A stretch of 64,000 nucleotides of DNA from Peredibacter starrii (GTDB taxonomy: Bacteria > Bdellovibrionota > Bacteriovoracia > Bacteriovoracales > Bacteriovoracaceae): assembly GCF_034259205.1 (NCBI RefSeq), contig NZ_CP139487.1:3596001-3660000 (forward strand). Direction: 5' to 3'. Below, one piece after another: positions 36,505-39,624 of this stretch (within the stretch, counting starts at the first letter, position 1; each line of letters begins with the position of its first letter). The notes beneath the pieces were generated by a model, which made no database searches, was not told the DNA's origin, and saw only the letters and a list, made by a program, of their open reading frames with translations. Position numbers and translations under genes: made by a program.

Positions 36505-37352
36505 CTCTCGTTCGCACGACTCAAGAACTTAATGACATTCGCTCCAAAGAAACAAGACCAGTTGGATTCGTTCCTACCATGGGAAATCTCCATCAAGGGC
36601 ACATTTCTTTACTCGAGCGCGCATTAACGGAATACGAGGTAGTTTACTTCTCTATTTTCGTCAATCCTAAGCAGTTTGGGCCAAATGAGGATTTCAACCG
36701 TTACCCTCGCACACTTGAGCAGGACATAAATCTCATTGAAGAACTCACGAAGCGTTTTCCCAAGAAAGAGGTTGTCGTTTATTCTCCTAAAGACCCACAG
36801 GAAGTTTTTCCTGAGTCTAAGAATCAGAATGTTTCAGTCCTTGGATTGAGCACCATGCTGGAAGGCAAGATCCGTCCAGGGCATTTTGATGGAGTGGCAA
36901 CGGTGGTATACCGCTTATTTGAATTAATGAAACCGACATCGGCCTATTTTGGCCTGAAAGATTTTCAGCAATACCTCGTCATTCGCCAGATGGTGAAAGA
37001 CCTGCAGATGCCTATCAAAATTGTTGGTATGCCGATTATTCGCGAAGCTGAGGGGCTGGCCCTTTCTAGCCGTAATCAATACCTGTCTCCAGAGCAGAAA
37101 TCGACTTCGCTCTTGATTTCAAGAACACTCAAAGAAATTACAAAAACGATTAATAATAAACGAGCAAATCTTTCTCAAGCGCAGACCTTTATCTCTACCC
37201 TTCTCAAGGATCCAAACTGGAACTACCTTGAAATGAGAGACGCTGAAACGCTTTCAGAAGATATTTCTCATTCTAAACAAATTACAATTCTTGCGGTTTA
37301 TCAGATGGGCACAACTCGCCTGCTGGACAACACGCAAGTGGAGATTGAATGA
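36498..37352 (+). CDS. panC: Pantothenate synthetase
   Basis: PanC ligates pantoate and beta-alanine using ATP. The 284-residue protein has the HIGH-like PTMGNLHQGHISLL, the phosphate site VNPKQFGPNEDFNRYPRT, FGLKDFQQYLVIRQM and LALSSRNQYLS. It overlaps coaBC by 7 nt and hflX by 4 nt. No panD for beta-alanine is in the window. Confidence 0.97.
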   Translation: MVTLVRTTQELNDIRSKETRPVGFVPTMGNLHQGHISLLERALTEYEVVYFSIFVNPKQFGPNEDFNRYPRTLEQDINLIEELTKRFPKKEVVVYSPKDPQEVFPESKNQNVSVLGLSTMLEGKIRPGHFDGVATVVYRLFELMKPTSAYFGLKDFQQYLVIRQMVKDLQMPIKIVGMPIIREAEGLALSSRNQYLSPEQKSTSLLISRTLKEITKTINNKRANLSQAQTFISTLLKDPNWNYLEMRDAETLSEDISHSKQITILAVYQMGTTRLLDNTQVEIE

Positions 37353-38680
37353 ATCACGAAGAGTTTAAACTTCCACTCGGCCAGAAGGCCTCACTTGTTT
37401 CACTGGTATGTGATAAATTTGAAAGTCATTCTACGGTTCTTGAAACAAATAATTCTCTTCGTGAATTGCGTGAACTCCTTAAAACTCTGGGCCTCATCGA
37501 TGGTGAAGAATACGTCCAAAATCGTAAGCACCTGGATCCGGCAACTATGCTGGGCGAAGGTAAATTAAGCGAAATTGCGGACGCTGCCCGTGAAGAAGGC
37601 TCTTCTGTCCTGGTTTTTGACTTTGAATTAACTGCCTCTCAGGTTCGTAACATCAAGGCCATCACCAAGATGGAAGTGGTAGACCGAAATACCGTTATCC
37701 TGGAGATCTTCGCCCACCACGCACGTACAAAAGAAGCAAAAATCCAGATTGAGATCTCTCGCCTGCAATATCTTCTTCCTCGATTGACTGCCATGTGGGG
37801 TCACTTCTCTAAACAAAGAGCATCTGGTGCCGCGATCGGTGGTGAGGGTGAACAACAACTCGAGCTTGACCGTCGTATGGTGCGTGAACGTATTGAGTTC
37901 TACAAAAAGCAACTTGATGAAGTTCAAAAATCCCGCGAACAACAAAGAAAAAAGCGTCAGAACCAGGCGGTTACTGCTGCTCTGGTTGGTTACACCAACG
38001 CTGGTAAATCTTCTCTCATGAACCGCCTGTGTAAGGTGAATGTACTGGAAGAGAACAAGCTCTTCGCAACTCTTGATTCAACTTTCCGCACACTCAACCC
38101 GGATTCTAAGCCGCCGATGATTATGATTGATACGGTGGGATTTATTTCAAACCTTCCGAACACACTCATCCAAGGTTTCAAAACAACTCTTGAATCTGCT
38201 CTTGAGGCCGACCTGCTTGTCATCACTTGTGACATTTCAGATCCAAATTACCAAAAACATCTGCGCGTTACTCAAGAAGTTTTGAAAGAGCTTAAGATTG
38301 AAGAAAAGCAACAGATCATTGTCTTCAATAAAAAAGATCTATTAAATGATCCAGTTCGTGCTCGGATCATCATGAGAAACTATCCAAATTCATTTTTAGT
38401 TTCTTCTTATGATGAAGAAGATATGAAGAATCTTCGCGAGTACATCATCAATTTCTTCCTCTCAAAACAGGATCATTACGATCTATTTGTTCCTTATGAA
38501 GCGGGTGAAGCTCACTCGAGAATCAGAGGAAATGCGAACATCATTAATTCTGTTTCACATGAGCAGGGAATTTTTTATCGCATTCGAATTCCAGATTTTA
38601 TTTTCCAACAACTCGGCCTCAATAATTTTATTTTGGCTCCGTCGGAAGCTAAAGACTGGGAAAATCCAACTTCAATTTAG
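37349..38680 (+). CDS. hflX: Ribosome-associated GTPase HflX
   Basis: HflX is a GTPase that splits stalled or hibernating 70S ribosomes. The 443-residue protein has the N-terminal HflX domain (LDPATMLGEGKL, the conserved IEIFAHHARTKEAKIQ), a helical linker, and a G domain with GYTNAGKSSLMN, DTVGFISNLPNTL, and FNKKD. The length is normal. It is the last gene of the CoA operon, overlapping panC by 4 nt, an unusual partnership. Confidence 0.95.
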   Translation: MNHEEFKLPLGQKASLVSLVCDKFESHSTVLETNNSLRELRELLKTLGLIDGEEYVQNRKHLDPATMLGEGKLSEIADAAREEGSSVLVFDFELTASQVRNIKAITKMEVVDRNTVILEIFAHHARTKEAKIQIEISRLQYLLPRLTAMWGHFSKQRASGAAIGGEGEQQLELDRRMVRERIEFYKKQLDEVQKSREQQRKKRQNQAVTAALVGYTNAGKSSLMNRLCKVNVLEENKLFATLDSTFRTLNPDSKPPMIMIDTVGFISNLPNTLIQGFKTTLESALEADLLVITCDISDPNYQKHLRVTQEVLKELKIEEKQQIIVFNKKDLLNDPVRARIIMRNYPNSFLVSSYDEEDMKNLREYIINFFLSKQDHYDLFVPYEAGEAHSRIRGNANIINSVSHEQGIFYRIRIPDFIFQQLGLNNFILAPSEAKDWENPTSI

Positions 38681-38730: not shown

Positions 38731-39150
38731 ATGAAAAAAACACGAAACACGCTTAAACGACGATGGACTGAACGTCAGGCGAGATTGAAAGAGAAATCTT
38801 TGAACCTGGCACATCCAGTTGTGAAAGCTTCATATACTTGGTCAATTCTTTCTGAACAACTTTGTGATGTACTCGGACCCGAAGTTCATCATCAATGGTT
38901 CAAGCAAGTAAAACCTCTGGTGATCAGTCACAACGTTCTGATCCTGGAAGTTCCAAATCATTTTTCAGCACAATGGATTCACACTCACTATCATGAGCTG
39001 GTTGATGTACTACTTTCTGTGATGGATAAAAAATTAACGTCGTTTTTTATTTCTCAATCTGAACGTCATCATGCACCTCAGATCGCGACAGGGCTAACTT
39101 TAGCGGAAGGCCCCGCTACGGAAGTAAAGCGTCAATCCGAAGACGAGTAA
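38731..39150 (+). CDS. Stand-alone DnaA domain I-like protein
   Basis: The 139-residue product matches only the N-terminal domain of the replication initiator DnaA (about residues 36-100: YTWSILSEQLCDVLGPEVHHQWF, LVISHNVLILEVPNHFSAQWI, THYHELVDVL). There is no AAA+ ATPase domain and no DNA-binding helix-turn-helix. The first 25 residues are Lys/Arg-rich and the tail is low-complexity. DnaA domain I normally mediates DnaA self-association and binding of DnaB, DiaA or HU-type partners, so a solo domain might modulate initiation; that is inference. It starts 50 nt after hflX. No clear ribosome binding site is visible; TGAGCG and CGCTCA bracket the leader. Confidence 0.7.
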   Translation: MKKTRNTLKRRWTERQARLKEKSLNLAHPVVKASYTWSILSEQLCDVLGPEVHHQWFKQVKPLVISHNVLILEVPNHFSAQWIHTHYHELVDVLLSVMDKKLTSFFISQSERHHAPQIATGLTLAEGPATEVKRQSEDE

Positions 39151-39201
39151 AGTCAGGACGATCCCAACCGTAACAATGAGCTTGTCTTTATTGTTGTTCA
39201 T
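39100..39201 (-). CDS. Putative 33-residue membrane protein
   Basis: An ATG at 39201 opens a 33-codon frame (TAA at 39100-39102). The start is polar and basic (MNNNKDK), followed by one membrane helix (LIVTVGIVLTLLVFGLTLYF) and a short basic tail (RSGAFR), the usual layout of a small inner-membrane protein. It starts 20 nt after the stop of the pseudo-receiver gene and so may be cotranscribed, or expressed from a TATAAT that lies exactly 6 nt upstream. Its 3' half overlaps the end of the DnaA-like gene on the other strand. No ribosome binding site is obvious. Confidence 0.42.
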   Translation of the reverse strand: MNNNKDKLIVTVGIVLTLLVFGLTLYFRSGAFR

Positions 39202-39221: not shown

Positions 39222-39575
39222 TTAATTAAGCTTTAAAAATTTTCCAAGAAGATCCGGAATTTGGAAGGGATCAAACGGGCGCTGAATTTGCCCTATAATG
39301 TTCTTAATAAAGCTCAGCTCCTCTCCCGCCTCAATCAGGACAAAGGGAAGATTCTGCATATTTTCTGAGCTCTCATACTGCTTTTTAAAGGCCTCGCCAT
39401 GAGTGGCGGCGGTCTTTCCGTCCAGAATAATCATGACCGGTTTCAGATCATCCACCAGGTAGCTGAAATTCTCAGCACTTGGAAGCGTATAAAAAGGCAA
39501 ATCCTTCTTCTTGAAGACTTTTTCAAGAAGACCGGTTGCGAATGTATTTTGATCGATCCAGAGGATTAAACCCAC
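39222..39575 (-). CDS. Receiver-like (CheY-fold) protein, partly degenerate
   Basis: The 117-residue product has receiver-domain order: ILWIDQN at the first strand (one acidic residue instead of two), IILDGKT with an Asp at the phospho-acceptor site, FVLIEAG, and QRPFDPFQI at the switch-lysine site, where Arg replaces the usual Lys. It has no output domain. Loss of these residues suggests a pseudo-receiver. It diverges from the next gene. Confidence 0.6.
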   Translation of the reverse strand: MGLILWIDQNTFATGLLEKVFKKKDLPFYTLPSAENFSYLVDDLKPVMIILDGKTAATHGEAFKKQYESSENMQNLPFVLIEAGEELSFIKNIIGQIQRPFDPFQIPDLLGKFLKLN

Positions 39576-39624
39576 GAGCTTGTATCCTTTGACAAAGGGG
39601 GCCAGTGATTACTACCATTGGGCC

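Follow-up and report, generated by a model that had tools for sequence, protein, structure and literature searches.

Does the N-terminal domain of the replication initiator DnaA exist here as a protein of its own and, if so, what could it do when detached from the rest of the initiator? The question is raised by one open reading frame (Table 1; here termed solo) in the window, by which we mean the whole stretch of 64,000 nucleotides that was analysed. The frame runs from an ATG to a stop codon and encodes 139 amino acids, of which residues 36-96 match the Pfam family DnaA_N (PF11638) with 46.2 bits against a cut-off of 24.6; it is the only Pfam family detected in the whole protein at E<=1. At this threshold neither the AAA+ ATPase domain (PF00308), nor the DnaA-box-binding domain (PF08299), nor the DciA family (PF05258) is found, and Pfam likewise reveals no Hda-type AAA+ domain. 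Only the N-terminal 81 positions of the NCBIfam DnaA model (TIGR00362) align with solo, with a score far under the cut-off. Because of this pattern of Pfam and NCBIfam matches, we regard solo as domain I of DnaA without AAA+ or DNA-binding domains. The original prediction of exactly such a protein, separate, small and devoid of ATPase and DNA-binding parts, is thus borne out, and a profile search without any DnaA_N match, named in advance as speaking against it, did not come about.

Table 1. Features of the solo locus (window coordinates) and, in the last row, of the loci of a second family (coordinates within each locus).
Feature	Position	Strand	Basis
hflX, conserved upstream neighbour	37349..38680	+	Pfam GTP-bdg_N/M and MMR_HSR1
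Solo DnaA domain I gene	38731..39150	+	PF11638 E 3.8e-12; 25/26 genus genomes; dN/dS 0.02-0.1
Basic N-terminal tail, ~residues 1-27	38731..38811	+	charge tally, model
Folded core, residues 28-113, a1-a2-b1-b2-a3-b3	38812..39069	+	AlphaFold2 model, PDB matches, residue tally
C-terminal tail, residues 114-139	39070..39147	+	low confidence, pLDDT 37-48; alignments
33-aa ORF, one membrane-like stretch, convergent	39100..39201	-	overlaps the last 51 bases of solo; translation
DnaA_N proteins of f2	L233:2104-2754; L234:1790-2455; L235:3-644; L236:2399-2905	-; +; +; -	

The AlphaFold2 model of solo, based on 23 sequences, has a mean pLDDT of 72.3, with 82-91 per block of ten residues in the core, and the top five Foldseek matches to it are DnaA domain I chains. 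According to VIA-align, the best match in the PDB is DnaA domain I of B. subtilis (4tps; Z 13.6, rmsd 1.7, 83 residues aligned), with further DnaA domain I structures from H. pylori (2wp0, Z 10.6) and E. coli (2e0g, Z 8.9), DciA (8a3v) at Z 8.7, and ribosomal and assembly proteins at Z 7.8 or less. The modelled fold is that of DnaA domain I, well above the unrelated structures. The N-terminal tail is modelled as a helix (pLDDT about 56-62) and carries a net charge of +8 in the window protein; in the other genera it is less basic, from -1 to +8 (charge was scored in 44 of the 46 solos, the remaining two not fitting the pattern). The C-terminal tail, whose DNA overlaps a small antisense frame, is absent or different in the alignments with other genera.

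Solo occupies a fixed place in the genome. The hflX gene lies 5' of it on the same strand in all 22 other loci (20 genomes of other genera, G038 and G039), and in 20 of these solo is followed by a homologue of the ORF at 39580; the neighbours hflX, panC and coaBC are uninformative on replication. A strict promoter scan of the window found no promoter ahead of solo, and a pattern resembling TTGnn-spacer-TAnnnT, picked post hoc, precedes the start by 6-14 nt in 20 of the 25 genus loci. The antisense 33-aa ORF, which ends in YFRSGAF(R), is present in 23 of the 25 genus loci, in 22 of them overlapping solo, and a strict pattern detects it in 11 of the 22 loci L123-L144 as well as in 4 out of 30 loci that lack solo; it is likely an unannotated small membrane protein. 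A small receiver-like protein (39222-39575, minus strand), which matches a DivK-like NCBIfam model below the threshold (E 7e-7), is often retained beside solo.

Conservation of the gene was among the checks suggested in the original prediction. Of the 26 genus genomes, 25 contain an orthologue in a small frame; that of G020 extends to 436 aa because unrelated sequence precedes it in the same frame. The single genome without solo (G002) is probably an assembly gap, since hflX was likewise not found there. G016 has two slightly different copies (L026 and L028) on two contigs, one of them ending at the contig end, which may reflect a strain mixture or a recent duplicate. Across the phylum, a solo-profile search matched 57 of 368 genomes at E<=0.01. 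Those from the window's family (46/129 genomes, 13/48 genera) all had E<1e-27, and the other 11 matches had E>1e-5 and frames of DnaA size (458-549 aa), except two of 223 and 313 aa. The same search gave no match in 83 of the 129 family genomes. In 30 solo-negative hflX regions of the family, the family-wide solo profile detected nothing credible 3' of hflX, the best hit (E 0.025) falling inside the hflX region. Replication therefore has no general need for solo, and the suggested link to filamentous or multi-copy growth is not supported by this distribution. From other genera, 20 of the 21 solos were retrieved, G130 being left out. Where solo is present, purifying selection on it is strong: dN/dS over the whole gene is 0.022-0.097 in the eight of nine close pairs for which it could be computed. 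The named relatives (24 loci in the GTDB contig collection) are mainly Bacteriovoracaceae MAGs, several of them labelled Bacteriovorax stolpii and a few just Proteobacteria, Bdellovibrionales or Halobacteriovorax.

The genome also possesses an intact dnaA, the distance of which from solo had been proposed as informative. It lies at ~254.5 kb of the same contig and solo at 3,634.7 kb, i.e. ~0.77 Mb apart if the 4.15 Mb contig, the only one of this genome, is circular, as we infer. This DnaA (538 aa) contains PF00308, PF08299 and a weaker DnaA_N match (29.1 bits); in one and the same DnaA_N search the resident domain I scored 32.4 bits vs 48.1 for solo. With an intact dnaA elsewhere and orthologues in 25 of 26 genus genomes, solo did not turn out to be a broken dnaA remnant missing in relatives. 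In the alignment of the family's DnaA proteins, the resident domain I has a one-residue insertion after helix 2. These proteins begin with a short conserved FPFxHFL-like motif, followed by a linker and then by domain I (e.g. L145:1309-2925). A strict pattern finds the motif in 35 of 40 family DnaA rows, whether solo is present or absent, in a set that omits 15 rows (7 family, 8 outgroup) lacking the Walker pattern or the letters FIK; these rows are included in the residue tally given below.

In the tree of domain I (87 rows, 80 columns, without the truncated L218, the partial L028 and 12 near-identical solos from the genus) all solos form one clade with support 100/100 and the resident domains another with 99/98. 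The branches are long, and the AU test does not reject a topology in which solos and residents group together (p-AU 0.493). Solo may thus have originated by duplication of an old family dnaA or by gain from elsewhere. On a quick tree of HflX and DnaA domains III-IV (66 rows, with the outgroup row G291 misplaced on a very long branch), the presence of solo requires 5 changes and is clustered far beyond shuffles, a pattern compatible with a single ancient origin and some later losses. A phage source was considered and rejected: there are five Vibrio phage matches with E from 7e-3 to 7e-2, and the one that was inspected (PH669) runs antisense to the annotated gene and is therefore taken as chance. 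No PHROG family matches solo at E<=1, and no relative was found among viral contigs. A plasmid source was likewise rejected, the plasmid matches being weak and alphaproteobacterial. Solo is an old DnaA domain I that stands by itself and has been retained at a single locus within a lineage of Bacteriovoracaceae.

What solo might contact can be judged from the residues studied in other bacteria, in which domain I is established as a point where regulators converge (PMC5448010, PMC6393240). Dimerisation of domain I in E. coli DnaA depends critically on W6; E21 and F46 contact DnaB, and E21, W25, N44, F46 and W50 matter for binding of DiaA (PMC5448010); in B. subtilis, the patch for DnaD includes the a3 face with F49 and W53 (PMC6393240). 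In our own alignment, W37, W56, F78 and W82 of solo occupy the places of E. coli W6, W25, F46 and W50. All 46 solos (45 genomes) have the three tryptophans, and 41 have F at the place of F46, with L, M or A in 5 of the 20 solos from other genera. Of these 20, just 4 retain N44, and the place of E21 is not conserved (V, I and others). The family's resident DnaA proteins were compared in 46 rows, 21 of them from genomes with solo or from G002 and 25 from solo-negative genomes (one truncated); none has the tryptophans of W6, W25 and W50. Because the two tallies are opposite, it is solo rather than the domain attached to DnaA that resembles the textbook domain I. In nine DnaA proteins from other families of the phylum, Trp occupies these places in 9, 6 and 9 cases, respectively, although this sample is biased towards solo-like domains because it was drawn from matches to the solo profile. 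The tryptophans of solo may also serve the fold core, and by themselves do not prove contact.

It is tempting to regard solo as compensation where DnaA has lost its tryptophans. Within the family, this idea is unsupported because the DnaA of solo-negative genera lacks them as well: the 25 aligned proteins (one truncated) have the same altered domain I. Over 20 genomes, solo cores share a mean pairwise identity of 52%, resident domains I one of 39% and DnaA III-IV one of 63%; the solo core is more similar than the resident domain in 181 of 190 genome pairs, and the identity between a solo and domain I of the DnaA in the same genome is no more than about 15-29%. A mirror-tree comparison of solo with the resident domain beyond shared ancestry gave only a weak signal of co-evolution (partial r 0.20, permutation p 0.075, 17 genomes).

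We propose that solo acts in trans, most likely as a protein-docking module that serves replication initiation or helicase loading as an adaptor or regulator; this has about an even chance of being correct. Having no ATPase or DNA-binding part, solo cannot initiate replication itself. It keeps both the tryptophan face of a1, through which E. coli DnaA dimerises, and the face of a2-a3, which in other bacteria binds DnaB, DiaA, DnaD, SirA or HobA. The a2-a3 face would bind a replication partner, e.g. the helicase DnaB, the loader DciA or a domain-I regulator, the a1 face would pair solo with itself or with DnaA, and the result would be an adaptor or regulator, positive or negative, of helicase recruitment. 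This reading is favoured by the DnaA_N match and fold, the retained contact residues, a core better conserved than the resident domain, the purifying selection and the single clade at a fixed locus. Speaking against it are the many family genomes without solo, the weak co-evolution signal, the variable F46, N44 and E21 places and the uninformative neighbours.

An alternative, which takes up the original prediction, is that solo competes with DnaA, pairing with it or occupying its helicase-loading partner, and would thereby lower initiation. A lone domain I whose faces for dimer and partner are both intact would suit this role, and the B. subtilis inhibitor SirA uses a face of domain I with a patch that overlaps that of DnaD (PMC6393240). 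However, competition for the same contacts is weakened by the lack of the three tryptophans in all 46 resident rows: a partner fitted to the face of solo would not be expected to bind DnaA likewise. A plain decoy is less likely, since the resident DnaA no longer shows that face, and we consider it rather improbable.

To the same limited degree we would credit a function alongside HflX that involves RNA or the ribosome. The fold of domain I is of the KH-like type (PMC5448010), solo always adjoins hflX, the lower-scoring fold matches include ribosome assembly factors and ribosomal proteins, and the N-terminal tail is basic in the genus. On the other hand, the basic tail is not common to all genera, hflX occurs without solo in all 30 solo-negative loci read, and both sequence and fold point first to DnaA domain I, the ribosomal proteins reaching no more than 7.8 against its Z of 13.6.

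A bolder reading is a two-piece initiator, in which solo would be the canonical domain I acting in trans to a DnaA that has repurposed its own. We consider this unlikely; if it is true, helicase recruitment would depend on a separate and separately controlled protein. In the four genomes of f2, a second family of the phylum, there is a non-DnaA protein, roughly 216-221 aa long where complete, with a strong C-terminal DnaA_N domain (58-64 bits; the Pfam search was rerun on two of the four). The genes for it lie upstream of lipoprotein, TPR and OmpA-like genes resembling bamD and pal, and the DnaA of f2 (frames of 452-457 aa) has a diverged N-terminal domain, so that f2 would be a parallel case for a two-piece initiator. 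Seven DnaA_N frames below 250 aa were found outside the window's family: the four f2 proteins, G353 (rejected as a solo, being a dnaA interrupted by N), G323 (rejected as well, its frame running off the contig end) and G359, whose frame begins at base 81 of its contig.

It is very unlikely that solo is a second helicase loader of the DciA type. The folds are related and KH-like, and some solos show weak sub-threshold DciA matches (E 0.17-0.6); however, the window protein shows none at E<=1, and a true DciA above the cut-off is encoded in 123 of 129 family genomes including that of the window, which is why solo cannot be its replacement either. Finally, that solo is a decaying dnaA fragment or an annotation artefact, as a short protein with one DnaA domain might suggest, is refuted by its dN/dS of 0.02-0.1, its occurrence in 13 genera at a fixed place after hflX and its own clade (support 100/100) apart from the resident domains.

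Among known systems, solo is most similar to DnaA domain I itself (as in 4tps, 2wp0 and 2e0g) in sequence family, fold and tryptophan faces; it differs in standing alone, with an N-terminal tail of its own and without domains II-IV. Hda, a homologue of DnaA domain III that forms a protein of its own and acts on DnaA (PMC5448010), resembles solo only in logic, in that one domain of the DnaA type has a gene outside dnaA; Hda is an AAA+ domain with a clamp-binding motif, whereas solo is domain I. SirA, DiaA, HobA and DnaD act on or through the a2-a3 face of domain I (PMC5448010, PMC6393240), but as its partners, whereas solo is domain I itself. DciA shares the related fold; the genome has its own in addition to solo. 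By annotation, DnaA_N also occurs outside DnaA in alphaproteobacterial plasmid proteins named "DnaA N-terminal domain-containing protein" (WP_023849329.1, 237 aa; WP_282487301.1, 83 aa); in 11 plasmid matches the local identity to solo is 25-44% over 32-63% of the query. We found no description of a free-standing domain I protein in the open-access PMC literature, in keeping with the original prediction, to which no described regulator of this form was known in this group.

Within a single prey cell, predators of this kind go through several rounds of chromosome replication. According to a 2023 review, no factor that regulates replication initiation had been identified in Bdellovibrio bacteriovorus (PMC11318664), which belongs to a lineage different from that of the window. 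For the Bacteriovorax lineage, the conserved free domain I offers a concrete and easily deleted candidate regulator. Moreover, domain I, normally fixed to DnaA, would here be an independent evolutionary unit, maintained while the DnaA's own domain I changes.
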